24,825 nt of DNA from a virus: positions 1-24,825 of the IMG/VR virus record IMGVR_UViG_3300008264_000023, one strand, 5' to 3'. A program made the translations under genes and the position numbers. Of this stretch, positions 8,586 through 24,593 are shown piece by piece (the stretch's first letter is position 1; each line of letters opens with the position of its first letter). The notes below the pieces were generated by a model. The model was not told the origin of the DNA. It made no database searches and saw nothing but the letters and a program-made list of their open reading frames with translations.

Positions 8586-8939
8586 ATGGCTAAAAACGAA
8601 ATTCAAGAAGGCAAGACGATGCCGTTTCCCGCTCCTTACGCGGTTGCGTCAGGCGCTGGTGCTTTGATTGGCGCTGTTTTTGGTGTTTCGCTGGCGGCCT
8701 TGGCTAACGGCGAGGTCGGGCAATTCAGCCTTGTAGGCGTATGGCAGCTACCCAAGGCCACTGGCGCCGCCGCCAGCCTTGGCGCACGGGCCTACTGGAA
8801 CGACACCAACAAAAACGTAACTGCCAGCGCCAGCGGCAACACCCTTATCGGTGTGTTCGTGCCGGCGGTGCCAACCCAAACTGCTGCCTATGCCTCTGGC
8901 GACGCCTTGGCCCACGTCCGCCTTAACGGCGCCTTCTGA
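8586..8939 (+). CDS. Capsid decoration (cement) protein, DUF2190 family
   Basis: This 117-residue small beta protein has the DUF2190 pattern: MAKNEIQEGKTMPFPAPYAV at the start, SGAGALIGAVFGVSL (22-36), GEVGQFSLVGVWQLPK (42-57), an ARAYWNDTNKNVT turn and TLIGVFVPA. Family members bind the outside of the capsid and stabilise it, replacing lambda gpD. The position right after the major capsid gene fits. It is preceded by a leader of 57 bases rather than a stop-start overlap, as expected for a gene made in large amounts. The stop overlaps the next start (TGATG). Confidence 0.8.
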   Translation: MAKNEIQEGKTMPFPAPYAVASGAGALIGAVFGVSLAALANGEVGQFSLVGVWQLPKATGAAASLGARAYWNDTNKNVTASASGNTLIGVFVPAVPTQTAAYASGDALAHVRLNGAF

Positions 8940-9355
8940 TGAGCTGGGCCCGCCTATCGGCCCATGCAGATCGGGCGGCCCTGGATCACATGGGCGGCGT
9001 CAGCGTAATTGCTGGCGCCGTTTCTGGTCGTGGTTTTTTGGAGGAAAACTACGAATTAATTTTTGATGGCCAGGTAAGGATTGTTCCTTGGCTGTTAAAA
9101 ATTAGAACTGCAGAATTTGGCCATTTAGATTACAACGCTTTTGTCGTTGCCAATGGCATTGCATTTAAGGCGGTGCGCGGGCCCGAGCCAGTCCCAGGTA
9201 GTGAGGCCAGGGAGCTGGGGTGGAGCATGGTGGAGCTAGCCAGGGTTGACGCCCCAGCCCCGCTGTATGTCATCCTCAACGGCGACCCAAGCGGCACGAC
9301 CAACGATCCCGCCCCCATGGATCCGCCGATCCTGATATTCGACGGTGATCCGTAA
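8939..9355 (+). CDS. Probable head-tail attachment protein, gpFII-like
   Basis: This 138-residue protein begins MSWARLSAHADRAALDHMGG and has a central beta-rich part (GRGFLEENYELIFDG, FVVANGIAFKAV, LGWSMVELARV). The order of a helix, then strands carrying an Asn-Gly turn, resembles the lambda FII / Gifsy-2 head-tail attachment proteins (117 residues). The gene sits where FII does in lambda, right after the decoration and capsid genes. The C-terminus is a Pro/Asp-rich tail (PAPMDPPILIFDGDP) absent from lambda FII. It overlaps both neighbours by one base (TGATG and TAATG). The call depends mostly on position. Confidence 0.45.
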   Translation: MSWARLSAHADRAALDHMGGVSVIAGAVSGRGFLEENYELIFDGQVRIVPWLLKIRTAEFGHLDYNAFVVANGIAFKAVRGPEPVPGSEARELGWSMVELARVDAPAPLYVILNGDPSGTTNDPAPMDPPILIFDGDP

Positions 9356-11397
9356 TGCCATATCAAGAGCAAAAAGCGCTATTTCGCCAAAGAACATCAA
9401 CCTTTGCCCAGGCAACGGCCCAGAATTTCATATTACTTGAAGGTGAAAAATGGTGGGAAGTTGACGCGGCAAATCTAACAACCGGGCGCAGCAAAACCGG
9501 GAAAGATGGCCGTGTTGTTAACGATGTGCTTATCGGCACTGCGTTTAACGATCTGCCGTTTGATCCCACCGGCACGGGGGAAGGCGGCCCCGGCGACCCC
9601 ACCAATCTATCAATTGTCAACCGCACGGCCGAGGGGCTGACGATTGCCTCCTCGACCGGGGCCGATGCACCGGTACCCTTGGCAAGCCTCACCCTGGCCG
9701 GCCTGGAAAGTGCCGACGACAAGGCAAAACTTGACTCAATCATTGTCGATAGCGCTCGAATAATCAGGATCCCGATTAGAAACAATTCAGGCGTCACCAT
9801 CCCCAAGGGCGCTCCGTGCTATCAAACGGGCAGCAGCGGAACAGCCATCACCGTGGCGCTGGCTGACGCATCCAGCGAGGCGACGGCATCGCAAACCCTG
9901 GGGCTGGCAGAAGCAGAGATACCTAATAATTCCAACGGCATTTTGATAGAGCGTGGCTTGCTTGATGGTCTTAATACTTCAGCGTTAACGGAAGGGCAAA
10001 TCGTTTGGTTGAGTGAAACCACGGGAGCATTAGCAACCACCAGGCCAACCCAGCCAGGGCATGGCGTTGTCTGTGGATATTGCATAAAACAAGGGGCTGG
10101 TACTAGCGGGATTCTTTATGTTAGGGTCTCCAATGGCCAGGAGCTTTATGAGCTGCATGATGTCCTGATTACCGGGGCGCCCGATAGTCAGGCGCAAGTT
10201 CTGCGGCGGTTTGCTGATGGGCTGTGGCGAAATTCGGTACTGGGCCCTGGCGACGTGGGCGCGGCCACCGCAGCACAGGGCGCTCTGGCCACGACGGCTG
10301 TGCAGCCTGGTGAGATTGGCAGCAGTGGCCTGACGATGACGGCAGGGATTTTGGGCCGCGAAAGCGGCTCGGGTGCGGCGCAAGTGTTCACGCTGGGCTC
10401 GGGCCTGGCGATCGTTGGCGGGGCCCTGACCGTCACGGCCGGTCCTGGTGGTGGGTATCCGTCGTTGAGCATGCCACCGGGATTCAGCGTTAGCGGCAGC
10501 GGCACCGCCTTGCTGGGGGTGACGTTTGCCGCCGGCTACAGCCTGCCAACGACCGCGAAACAGACCGAGTGGGACGCGGCCTACAGCGAGCGGCTCCGCT
10601 GGGACGGCAGTAGCACGGGCTTAAACCCAACAACCGCCCGCACCAGCCTGGGGCTGGGATCGGCGGCGCAGTCAGCCGCCACCGACTTTGCCGCCACCAC
10701 TGCTCCTGCGGCGGTGGTGGCGGCGCATGAAGCCGCGACCGACCCGCATCCGCAGTACCTGACGACCGCCGAGGGGAACGCGGCCTATGCCACCGCAGCG
10801 CAAGGGAACTTGGCCGCGACTGCCGTGCAACCGGCGGCCCTCGCTGGCTATGTTCAAACCAACGACAGCCGCCTCAGCGACTCTCGCGAGTGGAGCGCAG
10901 CCACGGTTGCCCAGGCGGATGCAGAGGCCGGCACTAGCACGATTCGAGTCGCGTACAACCCGTTACGGGTGTTCCAGAGCATTGCTGCATGGTGGGCGGC
11001 CAGCTCGGCAAAAACAAAGCTTGACAGCATTGCCAGCGGCGCGACGGCAAACCAAACCGACGCCTATCTACTGAGCCGTGCCAACCACACCGGGACGCAA
11101 GCAGCGGGAACAATTACGGGCCTGGGCACCCTGGCCCTGCAATCAGGCACCTTCAGCGGCACCAGCAGCGGCACCAACACGGGCGATCAGGACCTCTCAG
11201 GACTGGTGGTCAGGGCCAATAACCTCAGCGACTTGGCCAACACAGCAACCGCACGCAGCAATCTGAGCGCAGTGGGAACGGTTCCAGCTGGCATCACTGG
11301 CGCAAGCCAAGTCGTAAATGTTGTTAAACTTACCAAAGCAAACTATAATGCAATAACAACGCCAGACGAAAATACTTTATACATTATTATTCCATAA
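9355..11397 (+). CDS. Long tail-fibre-like protein (680 residues)
   Basis: A fibre-type structural protein. Residues 27-69 (LLEGEKWWEVD ... GTAFNDLPF) match the N-terminal attachment domain common in phage fibres (GExxxExD ... KxGDG ... xLP). Residues 130-260 form a beta-rich domain of the kind starting IPIRNNSGVTIPKGA and containing RGLLDGLNTSALTEGQIVWLS, seen in many fibre proteins. The middle is low-complexity Ala/Thr/Gly sequence with two similar segments at about 304-319 and 479-494 (TAAQGALATTAVQP and TAAQGNLAATAVQP). Residues 566-620 carry the NHTGTQAAGTITGLG and GTNTGDQDLSGL motifs typical of trimeric fibres. The C-terminus ends LTKANYNAITTPDENTLYIIIP, a common capping motif. It lies between head and tail genes, so it could be a head fibre or a side tail fibre. 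Confidence 0.8.
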   Translation: MPYQEQKALFRQRTSTFAQATAQNFILLEGEKWWEVDAANLTTGRSKTGKDGRVVNDVLIGTAFNDLPFDPTGTGEGGPGDPTNLSIVNRTAEGLTIASSTGADAPVPLASLTLAGLESADDKAKLDSIIVDSARIIRIPIRNNSGVTIPKGAPCYQTGSSGTAITVALADASSEATASQTLGLAEAEIPNNSNGILIERGLLDGLNTSALTEGQIVWLSETTGALATTRPTQPGHGVVCGYCIKQGAGTSGILYVRVSNGQELYELHDVLITGAPDSQAQVLRRFADGLWRNSVLGPGDVGAATAAQGALATTAVQPGEIGSSGLTMTAGILGRESGSGAAQVFTLGSGLAIVGGALTVTAGPGGGYPSLSMPPGFSVSGSGTALLGVTFAAGYSLPTTAKQTEWDAAYSERLRWDGSSTGLNPTTARTSLGLGSAAQSAATDFAATTAPAAVVAAHEAATDPHPQYLTTAEGNAAYATAAQGNLAATAVQPAALAGYVQTNDSRLSDSREWSAATVAQADAEAGTSTIRVAYNPLRVFQSIAAWWAASSAKTKLDSIASGATANQTDAYLLSRANHTGTQAAGTITGLGTLALQSGTFSGTSSGTNTGDQDLSGLVVRANNLSDLANTATARSNLSAVGTVPAGITGASQVVNVVKLTKANYNAITTPDENTLYIIIP

Positions 11398-11401
11398 TAC
11401 A

Positions 11402-12814
11402 ATGCCATCTACTTTAGGCGAAATCTATCTAGGCACGACTCTTGTAGCAAGCGGCGAGAGCGGCGGAACCACCACCACTCAGTTGGTGGATGAATGGGTC
11501 AGAAACCCCGCCTGGCCAGCGATCCCAACAGTCTTGGCAAGCGAGCAAAAAATCGTTGGTCTCTATGCCGTCTGGCCCGGCGATGGTACAGGAAATGGCG
11601 CTAACTTTTTTGCCTTCAATGGCCAAGCCGCTTACACAATAAATTTCGGCGATGGAACAACAATAAATAACGCAAGCAATACCCAGGCAAACTATGAACT
11701 TAATTTTAATAACGCCGCACTGGCCGGCACCAATAAGCCTGTAACTTTTACGGCGTCAACTAACACGGTAAATCTAGCGGGCCACGGCTTTAACGCTGGC
11801 ACAGCACTCCCATTCTATAGCATTGTTACGACAACTGGATTAATCGAAGGCCGGCGATATTACGTTGTCAACCCTACAGCAAATACGTTTCAAATCTCTG
11901 CTACCCTTGGCGGCAATCCTGTTACGCTGACCAATGATGGCAGCGCTACACTGCTGCCCTACAAAATAGCAATCGTAACAATTACCCCTCAAGCTGGTCA
12001 AAATTTAACCGTCATAAATTTACAAGCAAAACATAATCAGACAGGGCTGCAAGCTTATACAAGTGGTTGGCTTGATCTTGCAATTTCGGTTCCCAACGTT
12101 ACCGGCGCTAATTATACGTTGGGCGGTACTGCCGTTGGCCATCGACTTTTGGAACGAGTCAACGTAGTCGCGTGTGGTGTTCTGACAAATATGGCAAACA
12201 TGTATAGCAATACCCCTTCATTGCGAAGTGTATCAGCGTTCCCGAGCGGCATATCTGAAGTGACGACCCTGGCCAGTCACTACCTAAACAGCGGCCTAAA
12301 AAATTTCCCGGTATTTTTAGGCACTGCCGCAAAGGTCCAGTCTGCTTCGCAGATGTTTAATAATTGTTTTAATGCGGAATACTTTCCAGCGTTGCCGGGC
12401 TCAATTGCTGCTTTAACTAATGTGAGTAACATGTATGCTTCAACAAGCGTAAAACAAATACCGGCGTTTCCAAGCTCAACGGCAAATATATCAAATTTTA
12501 CAAACATTTGTCAGGTAATGCCAAATTTAGTAGAGCTGCCAGTTTTTAACTTGAGTGGCGTAACTTCTGCTGGTAATGGCGCTAACATGTTTAGCAGCTG
12601 CCCGTCTGTAAGGCGCATACCTATGTCAGGTATGCGGTTTTCGTTTACAGTGGCAAACTGTCAACTATCAGCGGTTGCCTTGAATGAAATCTTTGCCGGT
12701 CTCCCGGTCGTTGCTACAAACCAAATAATTACTGTAACTGGGAATTACGGCATCAATCAAAGCGGCTATAATCAAAGTATCGCCACTGCCAAAAACTGGA
12801 CGGTAACAGCATGA
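11402..12814 (+). CDS. Adhesin-like fibre protein with BspA-type leucine-rich repeats
   Basis: Probable receptor-binding or fibre-tip protein (470 residues). The N-terminus (MPSTLGEIYLGTTLVA) resembles phage structural proteins that begin with a short beta strand. Residues 78-88 (YTINFGDGTTI) resemble a PKD-type turn. Residues 115-185 form a beta domain with GHGFNAGTALPF and RRYYVVNPTANTFQIS. Residues about 250-445 are irregular repeats of about 23 residues of the BspA type, each with N-M-(Y/F)-x-x-C/S/T followed by L-x-x-(I/V/F)-P-x-F (TNMANMYSN, ASQMFNNCF, VSNMYAST, GANMFSSC). The C-terminal cap reads ITVTGNYGINQSGYNQSIATAKNWTVT. Such repeats bind surface ligands in bacterial adhesins. The gene is clearly AT-richer than its neighbours, suggesting separate acquisition. 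Confidence 0.7.
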   Translation: MPSTLGEIYLGTTLVASGESGGTTTTQLVDEWVRNPAWPAIPTVLASEQKIVGLYAVWPGDGTGNGANFFAFNGQAAYTINFGDGTTINNASNTQANYELNFNNAALAGTNKPVTFTASTNTVNLAGHGFNAGTALPFYSIVTTTGLIEGRRYYVVNPTANTFQISATLGGNPVTLTNDGSATLLPYKIAIVTITPQAGQNLTVINLQAKHNQTGLQAYTSGWLDLAISVPNVTGANYTLGGTAVGHRLLERVNVVACGVLTNMANMYSNTPSLRSVSAFPSGISEVTTLASHYLNSGLKNFPVFLGTAAKVQSASQMFNNCFNAEYFPALPGSIAALTNVSNMYASTSVKQIPAFPSSTANISNFTNICQVMPNLVELPVFNLSGVTSAGNGANMFSSCPSVRRIPMSGMRFSFTVANCQLSAVALNEIFAGLPVVATNQIITVTGNYGINQSGYNQSIATAKNWTVTA

Positions 12815-13320
12815 CAGCAGGATTCTACCGGTTTCTGGATGGCGAGCTGCGTTGTGCTCCAACTTCGGTTCACTTGCCAAATGCTGAACCGCTGCTTGCG
12901 TCCCAAAAGGATTCATACAATTACCCATATCATGGCTGGAGTTGGTTTAATAGCATCACAGCAGCCGAAGCGTATTACCAAATCAACGGCGCAACCAATA
13001 CCGATTGGACGGGATTCCGGCGTGCAATCCTGACCGAAAACGGGTACGTGAATGCACTGGCGCTAGCCTTGGATTCTGAAAATAATAGCGCTCGCCTTGC
13101 GGTGACGTTTTCGCATTCTCGTTTAGACCGTTTCCAAGACAAAGGAGATTTTGCCGAATATTTGCAAGGACTCTTGCTGATTGTTTCGGTACAGCCTGAG
13201 CAAAACAAAGCGCCTTTGATCGAGGAATTTCTGGCCTTGGCTGTGCGATGCAATTTGCCGGAGGCTTTTGTAACTGCCCTCAATGAGGCTATAATCGCCA
13301 TGACTCCGCCTCCCGCCTAA
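12811..13320 (+). CDS. Unknown protein coupled to the fibre genes
   Basis: I do not recognise this 169-residue protein. It overlaps the LRR adhesin stop by ATGA, so it is probably co-translated. It begins MTAGFYRFLDGELRCAP, has an aromatic-rich stretch at about 36-50 (NYPYHGWSWFNS), then a moderately charged mixed fold (TGFRRAILTENGYVNALALAL, AVTFSHSRLDRFQDKGDF) and ends in helices rich in Leu/Ala. No signal peptide or membrane segment is seen. The size and position directly after fibre genes would suit a fibre chaperone or a small receptor-binding accessory protein, but no tail-assembly family motif is visible, so this is only a suggestion. Confidence 0.6.
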   Translation: MTAGFYRFLDGELRCAPTSVHLPNAEPLLASQKDSYNYPYHGWSWFNSITAAEAYYQINGATNTDWTGFRRAILTENGYVNALALALDSENNSARLAVTFSHSRLDRFQDKGDFAEYLQGLLLIVSVQPEQNKAPLIEEFLALAVRCNLPEAFVTALNEAIIAMTPPPA

Positions 13321-13322
13321 CC

Positions 13323-13445
13323 ATGGATCTATGGGATGTTGTCGCCATGACGGCGCTGCACCTGGTCTTGTTTCCAGCGGCGTGGTGGGTGTTGACTGCT
13401 ATTCCATTGGTACAGCGCTGGATGGCTAAGAGGCTGAAGCCGTGA
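13323..13445 (+). CDS. Small single-pass membrane protein (40 residues)
   Basis: A short ORF starting ATG three bases after the previous stop and ending in a GTGA overlap with the next gene. The translation MDLWDVVAMTALHLVLFPAA is followed by a WWVLTAIPLVQRW stretch and a basic tail (MAKRLKP). One hydrophobic segment (about residues 6-30) and a positive C-terminus predict an inner-membrane protein with the C-terminus inside. It fills exactly the gap between two genes with coupled spacing, which supports its being real. It could be a small holin-like or antiholin-like protein because two further membrane proteins follow; the role is not proven. Confidence 0.55.
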   Translation: MDLWDVVAMTALHLVLFPAAWWVLTAIPLVQRWMAKRLKP

Positions 13446-13936
13446 GCGAAGAACACCCCAGTCCAGACGGGTATATTTCGGCAAGCGCAATTAGCGGCTT
13501 GCTTGACATGCTAAATCGCGCTTGTAAGGAATTTTCAGAGGTCAAAAAAGAACTTAAAGATATCACGTCTATAAAATACGATTTAACAAACGTGCGCGAA
13601 AGCCAAGGACGGACAGAATCCGCAATATCAGAAATTAAAAAAGAACATGCAGACTCAAGAAAGGAACACGCTGAAGGATTAAGGGAACATGACCTAGAGA
13701 TTCTTTCGCTTCAGAAAGATGTAAGCGCTTGTAAAGAAAGTAACAAAGACCTAGTTAAGGCTGTTAAAGATTTACAGAATGATATGGGCGGCATATTTAT
13801 CAAAATGGCTTTTTGTAGCGGCGGAGCATTACTGGCAGGTTGGTTGATAATGCAGGCAATAGCTATTTGGGATAAAATGCCTCAACCAAAAACCACCAGC
13901 CTGTCACTCATGGCCATAGCGAGGGAACGGAGATGA
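13442..13936 (+). CDS. Coiled-coil protein with C-terminal membrane anchor
   Basis: This 164-residue protein has a GTG start overlapping the preceding stop. After a short N-terminus (SPDGYISASAISGLLDML), residues about 25-115 are a highly charged heptad-like coiled coil rich in Lys, Glu and Asp. A hydrophobic segment at about 122-143 (MAFCSGGALLAGWLIMQAIAI) is then followed by a short basic tail. The layout of coiled coil followed by one membrane helix resembles XhlA-type proteins that accompany holins, but the sequence is not diagnostic. Its neighbours are also small membrane proteins, so a lysis or membrane-tethering role is plausible. It is AT-richer than the genes after it. Confidence 0.65.
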   Translation: MSEEHPSPDGYISASAISGLLDMLNRACKEFSEVKKELKDITSIKYDLTNVRESQGRTESAISEIKKEHADSRKEHAEGLREHDLEILSLQKDVSACKESNKDLVKAVKDLQNDMGGIFIKMAFCSGGALLAGWLIMQAIAIWDKMPQPKTTSLSLMAIARERR

Positions 13937-14181
13937 ACGCCAGAGACGCCATTACCAGGGCGATTGCATTGTGCCTTCTGTCGTCCCCAGTCATTGGGGT
14001 CGGGGGGGCCTACCACGTGTGCCAGCGGCGGCAAAACGATTGCCTTCAGGCATGGACAGCGGCTGGATCCGGCTCGCTTGCGGCGGCCGGTTTGGGTGCC
14101 ACCTTGCTGGCAAAGCTGGACGACCCTCCCGGCGCAACAGGACTCACCGAGCCTCAACAGGACCGCACCCCTGACCCATGA
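13933..14181 (+). CDS. Small membrane protein, possibly holin-like
   Basis: This 82-residue protein overlaps both neighbours by ATGA. A hydrophobic helix (about 8-28; TRAIALCLLSSPVIGVGGAY) is followed by a Cys-containing polar turn (CQRRQNDCLQAW). A second, weaker hydrophobic stretch (about 42-60; GSGSLAAAGLGATLLAKL) comes next, and the C-terminus is Pro/Asp/Thr-rich and disordered. Two helices joined by a short loop would fit a small holin, but a single signal anchor with a periplasmic tail is equally possible. I do not recognise the family. It is the last gene before the tail terminator, closing the accessory block. Confidence 0.6.
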   Translation: MNARDAITRAIALCLLSSPVIGVGGAYHVCQRRQNDCLQAWTAAGSGSLAAAGLGATLLAKLDDPPGATGLTEPQQDRTPDP

Positions 14182-14678
14182 CGCTCTCTATCTCTTGCCG
14201 GATCATGGATGCCCTGGCCGATCTGCTGCAGGGCGCGGCTCCCGAGGGGGAGTCCGACATTCCGTGGCTGGTCGGCAACCCAGCCAACCGCCGCCCCCAG
14301 TTGTTTCTAGATGCCTCCCGCGTGGCGGGGCCTGGTGATGGGGTGGTGATCGGAATTGACCAAGGCGACGTGAACGAGGGCCGATCCAGGGACGAGATCG
14401 CAGACACCTGCAGGGTGCTGTCAATCATGCCGGTGGTGCTCACTATCTCGATGCCCCGGCAACCGGGAGACCCCCCTAACTGGCAGCTGCTGGACCCGTT
14501 CTACGTGGCGGCCCATAGCAGAATCATGGCCCCGCCCCGCAACTTGGGAGGGCTATGCCAAAGCATTCAGTCAGACGGGCGGGCGTTTCCCGATCCCAAT
14601 TTGCAGGCATGTTGGCTAAGGCTCCTCTACACTGTCACCTACAAGACCGCAGAGTCTGATGTGACCGTGATCAGATGA
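14178..14678 (+). CDS. Probable tail terminator, lambda gpU-like
   Basis: This 166-residue protein has its start overlapping the previous stop (ATGA). The layout is an N-terminal helix (SISCRIMDALADLL), then strands (QLFLDASRVAGPGDGVVIGID; LSIMPVVLTI), a helix after a proline loop (LLDPFYVAAHSRIMA), and a closing strand with CWLRLLYTVTYKTAESDV. That is the pattern of phage tail terminator proteins, which cap the tail tube and set its final joining surface. It lies two genes before the tail tube protein, equivalent to U before V in lambda. Sequence identity to known terminators is not obvious to me, so the call rests on pattern and place. Confidence 0.5.
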   Translation: MTLSISCRIMDALADLLQGAAPEGESDIPWLVGNPANRRPQLFLDASRVAGPGDGVVIGIDQGDVNEGRSRDEIADTCRVLSIMPVVLTISMPRQPGDPPNWQLLDPFYVAAHSRIMAPPRNLGGLCQSIQSDGRAFPDPNLQACWLRLLYTVTYKTAESDVTVIR

Positions 14679-23394: not shown

Positions 23395-23742
23395 TCATTG
23401 CACGGCGACCACCGACACCCCAGTCACCAGCCACAGCCCCCCAGGTCGCAGGCCCCACCTGGGCGCCGACGCATAGCGCCACAAAGTCACCGGCGGCGGT
23501 GATGCCCGGCCCACCCATGCGGCAGCCGGCAGGCTCCAGGCTGACAGCAACCCCACCGTGCGCCAGTGCTCCTGGAGATCATCGAACTGCGAAGGGTTCA
23601 ACAGTGGCAACGGCAGCTCCAGGGTTTGGCCCCGGATGGCATCGCCCGTCCGGAACTGCCGGTCAAATTCATCGGCGATGCTGAATCCCCCGAGGGTGTG
23701 CGGCCTACCGATGAGGGATAGGGATGCAGGAAAATTCATCAA
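23395..23742 (-). CDS. Tail-tip connector domain protein on the minus strand
   Basis: This 115-residue protein is read leftward. It appears to be a paralogue of the first 125 residues of the 22141 gene on the other strand: MNFPASLSLIG versus MANFPALIPA, LPLPLLNPSQFDDLQEHW versus LPFQNLSEAEANSVRAH, and LWRYASAP versus WVYASAP, both ending in strands. It has no added C-terminal domain. Its ATG overlaps the stop of the upstream minus-strand gene (ATGA). Its stop abuts the stop of the plus-strand tail-tip gene, the two forming TGATCA at 23392-23397. It probably forms a second tail-tip ring or adaptor. Identity is low at nucleotide level, so the relation is ancient. Confidence 0.7.
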   Translation of the reverse strand: MMNFPASLSLIGRPHTLGGFSIADEFDRQFRTGDAIRGQTLELPLPLLNPSQFDDLQEHWRTVGLLSAWSLPAAAWVGRASPPPVTLWRYASAPRWGLRPGGLWLVTGVSVVAVQ

Positions 23743-24593
23743 GAAGTTAGTGCAGAAATTTCTATGGTGTTATCTCCAACGGCAAACACGTTACCGCCTG
23801 AGGAGTATGGGGCTCCGAAATTCATTATTAAAATCACTCGATCAGCACTGGAAGCACCACCAAGCCGCTGGTAAAATGCAACGTACTGGGCTGTATATGT
23901 AGCGGCTGGAAAGATTGGCCCATTAAATTTAATGATTGTTTTGTTTGCTGTGTCATCGCGATTAATAGTCAGCTGGCACACGATACCCCCAGCAGTGTAG
24001 CCAGCGGCTGACACCTCAAAAGCTGTCAGGCTCGACCTAAAGGAATGCGCTACGTTTGGCGTGTAGCTTGCTGTCAGAAGCATCGCGTAAACCGTGGCAG
24101 TAGAAAGTATTAGCTGTTCATTGAAAATGGCTGTGAGGGTGGCGGTCGGGACTGTGTGCGCACCGCCTCCCAGGAAAGCCGCGTCAAAGCTCACAGCCTC
24201 AACCCTGAAAATTCCGCCTACGTGATTTTGCGGCGACCCGAAATTGTTCCATCCTAGTATGTATTGTTCAGATGGTATCGAGCCTGTAGGGCGATAATAA
24301 ATCAGCATGCCCTGAGCGCCCGTAATGTTGGCGTCGCTCCATTGCGTCTGGGCGATGGTCGTTGTGACGATCGCGCTTGCCGTGGCGATGGTTACGGCAA
24401 CGGCTTTGCCGCCTGCTGCGTAGCTGCCTACCGGGGTGATTTCGCCACTGGTTACCGATGCCCGTGTGTCCATGGTGTCAGGGTCGAACACAAACTCAGG
24501 CCCCATTAATTGCCCGTACCATGTGCCAGTCAACGGGGCTGCTGGGGTTGCGATGGAAGTTAGGTAGGCATTGGCGTAGGTGAACGAGGGCAC
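23739..24593 (-). CDS. Minus-strand tail protein with duplicated domain
   Basis: 284 residues, GTG start. Two related beta domains appear in tandem. Copy one (about 25-119) has FDPDTMDTRASVTSGEI, YAAGGKAVAVTI and QWSDANITGAQGMLIYYR and ends GWNNFG. Copy two (about 168-260) has YTPNVAHSFRSSLTAFEV, YTAGGIVCQLTI and PAATYTAQYVAFYQR and ends IMNFG. The pattern of helix-free strands with a Y-(A/T)-A-G-G-(K/I) turn is one I recognise from small tail proteins of tailed phages, usually present once per gene. The N-terminus starts MPSFTYANAYLTSIATPAAP. It is transcribed away from the peptidase gene and coupled to the connector gene downstream. Likely a fibre or tail accessory protein. Confidence 0.65.
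   Translation of the reverse strand: MPSFTYANAYLTSIATPAAPLTGTWYGQLMGPEFVFDPDTMDTRASVTSGEITPVGSYAAGGKAVAVTIATASAIVTTTIAQTQWSDANITGAQGMLIYYRPTGSIPSEQYILGWNNFGSPQNHVGGIFRVEAVSFDAAFLGGGAHTVPTATLTAIFNEQLILSTATVYAMLLTASYTPNVAHSFRSSLTAFEVSAAGYTAGGIVCQLTINRDDTANKTIIKFNGPIFPAATYTAQYVAFYQRLGGASSADRVILIMNFGAPYSSGGNVFAVGDNTIEISALTS

Follow-up and report, generated by a model that had tools for sequence, protein, structure and literature searches.

A block of six open reading frames (ORFs) at positions 9355-14181 of the virus record IMGVR_UViG_3300008264_000023 is, judged from sequence comparison, probably a modular host-adsorption cassette at the head-tail joint. The stretch analysed comprises positions 1 to 24,825 of that 24,825-base record (hereafter the window) and has a lambda-type gene order (terminase, portal, protease-capsid fusion, decoration, FII-like, block, tail terminator, tube, chaperones, tape measure, and tip). 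As the initial annotation had noted, the six ORFs lie between the head and tail modules, and both flanks were matched: an FII-like head-tail joining gene on the left (8939-9355; PF05354 at E 0.0083 and 17.1 bits, under the family cut-off of 26) and the tail terminator on the right (14178-14678; phrog_4204, E 2e-7), all features of the block and its flanks being on the plus strand. In the arrangement we propose, the FII-like neck protein would end in a short tag onto which the N-terminal domain of a 680-aa fibre docks, the fibre C-terminus would carry a leucine-rich-repeat (LRR) adhesin as its tip, as the matched termini of the two proteins suggest, and the following protein, p169, may help the tip fold. 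The hypervariability of the LRR part suggests that its surface may bind a variable host receptor, and three small proteins encoded downstream may act in lysis. These functions are deduced from sequence, whereas gene content, occupancy of the site, module exchange, the hypervariable LRR part, covarying ends of neighbouring genes, and tag enrichment are read from it directly. The docking end, the tip, and the N-terminus of the chaperone-like protein differ between relatives, by their sequences, in a modular way.

The relatives were chosen by a portal protein search, because selection by the block itself was to be avoided, and 25 of the 80 taken (the best 80 of 102) reach from decoration/FII to terminator/tube; several of these 25 are contigs also recovered by tube or block searches, and in three of them (L164, L165, and L167) the right boundary is set by a tube match, with a probable terminator inside the gap. 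At this site, 23 of the 25 spanning loci have a gap of 2.3-4.9 kb occupied by fibre or adhesin genes. In L152, the FII and terminator genes overlap, leaving nothing between them, and in L170 the terminator directly follows FII and an adhesin-like gene lies upstream of FII (phrog_5939 tail protein, E 1.9e-19).

The C-terminal tail of the window FII-like protein (9242-9355) contains two hydrophobic-NG/DG motifs and ends in PILIFDGDP, and the gene is followed by that of the fibre (9355-11397, 680 aa), which has a predicted docking domain at residues ~1-73, a repetitive shaft, and a C-terminal Phage_tail_C domain at residues 655-679 (PF24243, E 5.9e-7). When the FII proteins of the relatives were compared (59 distinct rows, fourteen of them without a downstream ORF on the contig and L136 with only a short unclear one), every recurring N-terminal type of fibre paired with its own type of FII tail. 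IFDGDP-like tails go with fibres starting MPYQEQK, ILDGSG-like tails with MTTYNRQK/MTTYQVQK, YIYDGGGA-like tails with Mtd_N fibres, LLVTGSGRSLQTQPS with MTQTP, TLDGR/TQDGR-like tails with TITGLPNA/TISGLPNA, TTPAGIPLIAI with MAVQPGSIS, and VLILDGDFL with MT.YQS, some of these types being single loci. The tail is absent from the FII proteins of L152 and L170 (98 and 99 aa), where the terminator directly follows. Because the FII tail matches the fibre N-terminal type and is missing where no fibre follows, we suggest that it is a fibre-docking tag and that the fibres are neck-anchored, a role proposed here as new.

Since neighbouring genes can be linked by recombination, we also examined genes outside the clade, in 24 phages picked for host spread out of 554 phage records that match Mtd_N. 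In 17 of these 24, the protein encoded just upstream of the Mtd_N fibre has a hydrophobic-DG motif among its final 20 residues, compared with 54 of 1105 ORFs of the IMG/VR loci (tagged FII genes included) and 2 of 35 other complete annotated genes from the same stretches. A strict DGG within 45 residues occurs in 16/28 (four S-CBS genes included) vs 12/1105. The P values of this enrichment overstate independence, because several of the 24 phages are related to each other. Annotations of the upstream genes vary and include tail, minor tail, endopeptidase, structural, and hypothetical protein. The N-terminus of the window fibre aligned with a group of nine Mtd_N sequences including L026 (Mtd_N E 1.8e-12) at an hhalign probability of 96.9 and E 1.5e-10, and the whole fibre has no Pfam Mtd_N match at E up to 0.1, so that, by sequence, the N-terminus is a divergent relative of Mtd_N and not a Pfam member. 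Synechococcus phages S-CBS1 and S-CBS3, 26-28% identical to the window in the tail tube, carry a short Mtd_N-like fibre at the same site, and their neck region resembles the window in having an FII-like gene with a DG-bearing C-terminal tail, an Mtd_N-like fibre, and the tail terminator in the same order. In S-CBS3 these are gp08, gp09, and gp10 (phrog_4204, E 1.9e-41); unlike the window, the fibre has only 202 aa and no tip, chaperone-like, or membrane genes precede the terminator. A fibre is not universal at this distance, since the annotated genes before the tube gene of Rhodovulum RS1 are all small.

A more general code, in which a C-terminal hydrophobic-DG(G) peptide on an upstream virion protein (neck, tail tip, or hub) docks Mtd_N-type fibre N-termini, is an attractive proposal that we hold tentatively and rate just short of an even chance; it would extend to phages infecting cyanobacteria, proteobacteria, actinobacteria, streptococci, and possibly Bacteroidota, and fibres of other types would have their own tag/domain pairs. 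The open-licence PMC papers searched held nothing on point for a DGG docking motif or for the docking of Mtd-type N-termini. A second tag/domain pair, that of the 'TITGLPNASALSGTERVP' fibre type, was not generalised: the phage search gave one record, whose upstream gene (L187) has no clear tag.

Several observations count against docking at the neck or against the neck fibre as the receptor binder. The FII/fibre and fibre/tip genes are neighbours and their matched ends may reflect recombination linkage rather than contact; several of the loci compared are almost identical; the alignment shows no clear FII tail for L121, yet a fibre follows; the tag is missing in 7 of the 24 Mtd_N loci (Kabocha, Kurt, GRU1, Lollipop1437, S-CAM8, S-B64, and P-SSM3); and the nine window-type N-termini gave no match to Pfam Mtd_N (PF18454) at E up to 10. 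The tail-tip protein p433 has an extra C-terminal domain (phrog_15525, a minor tail protein, at its N-terminus, with phrog_24074 and phrog_701 beyond), and the neck fibre therefore need not be the main receptor binder. The fibre could also be an ordinary side tail fibre mounted on the tail tip, with gene order uninformative on its position. We regard this as unlikely, though it is the strongest of the alternatives: virion position is not dictated by gene order, and for FoX4, Suzuki, Summit, and 315.1 the annotation of the fibre's tagged neighbour reads tail, tail assembly, minor tail, or tail fibre protein. In S-CBS3, moreover, a second Mtd_N-like fibre, gp19, follows the tail-tip-region gene gp18. 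In the clade, however, it is the head-tail joining protein that bears the matching tail, and the tail is absent from the two loci where no fibre comes next. The gp18-gp19 region of S-CBS3 lies at 17582-18651 of L035; the tail-tip-region protein ends in FILDGDDA...LILQAGGAES, and gp19 is followed by a helix-plus-coil gene, a small membrane gene, and a lysozyme gene.

The other end of the fibre is likewise matched to its neighbour. The C-terminus of the fibre and the N-terminus of the tip fall into the same four types in 18 of 18 loci (3, 9, 3, and 3 loci, some nearly identical), and most fibre N-terminal types are found with more than one of these four types. The tip in the window is LRR470 (11402-12814, 470 aa), which has a beta N-terminal half and an LRR domain; relatives have LRR470, a divergent LRR378, a Gly-rich tip (PF21722, E 7e-17), or others. 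According to its predicted model, LRR470 has a leucine-rich-repeat solenoid: confidence is mainly confined to the second half (from residue 251 on, pLDDT about 79-96), and VIA-align placed 195 residues on 6mlx_B with Z 13.4 and rmsd 3.5, followed by many other LRR proteins. Foldseek returned no match with E below 0.001 for LRR470, and Pfam no LRR match. LRR proteins of this type include those called BspA-like. Residues 256-410 (12167-12631) are hypervariable; the mean pairwise identity of eleven LRR470 sequences is 51% in the LRR part vs 72-87% in other parts. In L021 (9947-11536), the LRR protein is in two ORFs and p169 is shortened, which could be decay or a sequencing error.

The next gene encodes p169 (12811-13320, 169 aa), which consists of an exchangeable N-terminal domain and a constant helical C-terminal domain (~63-169). 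In an alignment of 17 sequences (A2), residues from ~65 are kept and the N-terminus differs in the three Gly-rich loci aligned; the predicted model (pLDDT 82.5) is built of strands in its N-terminal part and of helices in its C-terminal part, and the N-terminal part resembles stand-alone phage proteins of 59-63 aa (best E 8.6e-4). The gene thus has a chaperone-type layout, with an N-terminal domain that varies with the tip, a constant helical C-terminal domain, and a place after the fibre and tip genes. The chaperone gp25 of phage Pam3 is reported to have the same combination of a variable N-terminal and a constant helical C-terminal domain (PMC9608196). The Pam3 gp24/gp25 pair and the clade are alike in this partner protein and, for some relatives, in a Gly-rich tip, and it is by analogy with gp25 that p169 may assist tip folding. 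Pam3 differs in being a myophage with its fibre on the baseplate, and among solved structures neither p169 nor a 195-aa protein has a Pam3 sequence match. The 195-aa protein gave two weak matches to unrelated proteins only (E 0.65 and 0.71), and no match was obtained for the L004 Gly-rich tip with E as high as 1 allowed. For p169 itself, the PDB yielded no sequence match, which speaks against the assignment, and no significant fold match (best VIA-align Z 6.2); neither sequence nor fold places it in a known chaperone family.

The neck fibres of Anabaena phage A-1(L), as described in their report, resemble the proposed cassette in their neck anchoring and in having several proteins in series; the anchoring and fibre proteins are others, a distinction made by description and not by sequence (PMC10966104). 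The tip of the A-1(L) neck fibre reportedly did not bind the host (PMC10966104), a further point against receptor binding by the tip proposed here. The earlier idea of a host-range or adsorption module nevertheless gains support from sequence, through the exchangeable tips, the hypervariable LRR region, and the matched ends of neighbouring genes.

The remaining ORFs of the block are p40 (13323-13445, 40 aa; read directly from the sequence and under the length limit of the ORF list), p164 (13442-13936, 164 aa), and p82 (13933-14181, 82 aa). By hydropathy, p40 has one predicted transmembrane helix, the lysis-accessory-like p164 has a C-terminal transmembrane helix in addition to a coiled coil recognised by sequence, and p82, possibly holin-like, has a cysteine pair and one clear hydrophobic segment (two in some relatives). 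p40 was matched in 11 of the 25 spanning loci. Judged by eye, 20 of the 23 filled loci have a helix-bearing coiled-coil protein together with a small membrane protein ahead of the terminator, in several unrelated sequences, including variants of 94-102 aa in L097, L102, L114, L132, and L135 and variants with the helix first in L145, L164, L165, and L167; L147 and L155 have neither protein and L151 has one such protein. In the XhlA/XhlB lysis pair of PBSX, which follows the fibre genes, a protein with a coiled coil and a C-terminal helix is combined with a small membrane protein. Hydropathy and reading by eye show this XhlA/holin-type layout (coiled coil, C-terminal helix, small membrane partner) for p164/p82, with no significant sequence match to XhlA/XhlB.

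In L062 and L063, which have another phage backbone, a p164 homologue and a cyclooxygenase-like gene lie upstream of an endolysin gene (phrog_10051, E 8.3e-53 and 4.9e-52, respectively); L063 has a small membrane protein between the two, and L064 ends before the endolysin point. Because of the membrane topology and of these p164 homologues near an endolysin gene, we favour a lysis role, and p40, p164, and p82 have, on sequence grounds, roughly even prospects of being holin-type lysis proteins. Two results do not fit such a role. In G013, the one window relative checked, an endolysin-like gene lies beyond the tip module and not next to p164, and lysis family profiles gave nothing significant for p164, p82, or the variants; the best lysis-type match, of the L114 variant to a 'hemolysin' PHROG, was not significant at E 0.041. 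Weak coiled-coil matches to unrelated families were set aside. The suggestion of the initial annotation that the block is a lysis module has support for the small membrane proteins only, and the place of the endolysin-like gene in that one relative speaks against it. The small membrane proteins could instead be a superinfection-exclusion or membrane-remodelling unit (a moron), in keeping with an endolysin-like gene that lies elsewhere in the one relative checked and with a slot that takes cargo, namely the cyclooxygenase-like gene between the coiled-coil and small proteins of L004 and L058-L061. We find this quite unlikely, since L062 and L063 have the endolysin gene downstream of their p164 homologue, and a pair kept by 20 of 23 loci in unrelated sequences is as expected of a retained function. 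The sequence comparisons, which cannot assay protection of a host, gave no sign of superinfection exclusion.

The oxygenase gene lies among the membrane genes in some relatives, not in the window. The cyclooxygenase-like haem peroxidase gene was found without internal stops in nine viral contigs (L004, L034, and L058-L064), cut by the contig end in L034 and L064. The 562-aa protein of L004 (7436-9124) matches PF03098 at E 2.6e-40 and, as its best solved match, COX-2 at E 4.9e-59. In L004 and L058-L061, the gene is flanked by the p164-type gene and by the small membrane gene that precedes the terminator; in L034 it comes after the p164-type gene. The viral proteins keep the Tyr/proximal-His motif of COX; Asp aligns with the distal His, likewise in the cellular homologues examined. 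None of 50,697 phage records matched at E 1e-5, and there was nothing on point for a phage cyclooxygenase in open-licence PMC papers; the best cellular matches are from Synechococcus (72-73%). A tail tube search matched eight named-phage records, including Synechococcus S-CBS1 (27%) and S-CBS3 (26%) and Rhodobacter RC1 and Rhodovulum RS1 (both 25.6%). Because of the tail tube matches and this gene of the relatives, the host of the window virus is probably a freshwater picocyanobacterium, as far as sequence can indicate.

Coding is supported for five of the six block ORFs, all but the fibre, because pN/pS was below 1 in every pair compared: 0.14-0.44 for LRR470, 0.17-0.41 for p169, 0.30-0.63 for p40, 0.25-0.37 for p164, and 0.18-0.32 for p82, with 0.06-0.12 for the tail tube and terminator for comparison. 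Several genes of the block had also been described as lower in GC than the flanks. Relative to the window (0.561), this is true of LRR470 (0.464), p169 (0.498), and p164 (0.424), and not of p40, which is average (0.561), or of the fibre (0.599) and p82 (0.643), which are above average; TAC1, a gene outside the block, is as low as the low-GC block genes (0.456). Among the six LRR-bearing relatives measured, the LRR (0.45-0.49) and p164 (0.45-0.47) genes are GC-poor within stretches of 0.56-0.585, and the gene of the Gly-rich tip in L004 is rich in GC (0.669). For the freshwater cyanosiphovirus S-LBS1, the tail fibre gene is reported to be low in GC, at 53.8% vs 60.2% (PMC6157547).

From the 23/25 occupancy and the recurring low GC of the LRR and p164 genes, we conclude on sequence evidence that the site is near-core and that its content is exchanged among relatives. 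Nucleotide matches to the window stop at 13,424-13,452, around the 3' end of p40, in L002, L004, L007, L010, L013, and L014 and also in L018, L021, L026, L031, L034, and L058, making this a recurrent end of homology, and continue through p164 in L005, L011, L017, and L032. L010 shares the stretch 9784-13447 with the window (97.4% over 9784-10473 and 99.1% over 10563-13447, the ~90 bases between 10473 and 10563 being missing from L010) between divergent flanks; its use as proof of cassette exchange was weakened, because its fibre frame is broken and it may be an assembly chimera. At positions 1-1129, the start of the 277,244-base contig L031, homologues of the LRR C-part, p169, and p40 (62-73%) adjoin genes without a match in the window, by cross-phage transfer or in an assembly chimera. 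G020 (53,303 bases; L054 and L056) carries the block and the tail terminator twice, in differing versions, and may have been assembled from two phages. The 284-aa protein encoded at 23739-24593 on the minus strand of the window is kept in many relatives at 47-93% identity and adjoins the endolysin-like gene in G013.

The initial annotation had called the block an island, to be recognised as core if relatives all had it at this place with matching composition. Such synteny holds largely, though not fully, since 23 of 25 sites are filled, L152 is empty, L170 is rearranged with its adhesin on the other side of FII, and contents are exchanged. The block resembles the metaviromic islands of marine phages, in which host-recognition genes form variable blocks in otherwise conserved genomes; those islands were detected by read recruitment, and the portion of that report available describes no docking rule (PMC3909814). 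That the block is a recently imported foreign island, as the lower GC of LRR470, p169, and p164 and the empty site of L152 might indicate, is very improbable: the site is filled in nearly all relatives, the low GC of LRR and p164 recurs in the six measured, and the distant S-CBS1 and S-CBS3 have a fibre there too. Recent insertion of the whole block was rejected on occupancy and on GC in relatives, and single cargo genes can still be recent. Least probable of all is that a diversity-generating retroelement acts on LRR470, as one does on Mtd of BPP-1, for although its LRR part is hypervariable and a gene annotated mtd lies between the decoration and neck genes of S-CBS1 and S-CBS3, a search of 24 records, many being fragments and the window not included, found no reverse transcriptase (PF00078), and the LRR sequence is identical in L002 and L014.

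The position of a fibre in the virion is hard to read from sequence. If the FII tail is a docking tag, sequence alone would tell that a fibre is located at the neck and which fibre/tag pairs fit, and the clade, in which the docking end, the tip, and the chaperone-like protein are reshuffled, provides a natural series. The same tag association in unrelated phages can be tested in laboratory phages, and a general docking code, if true, would predict the position of fibres and which fibres can replace each other.

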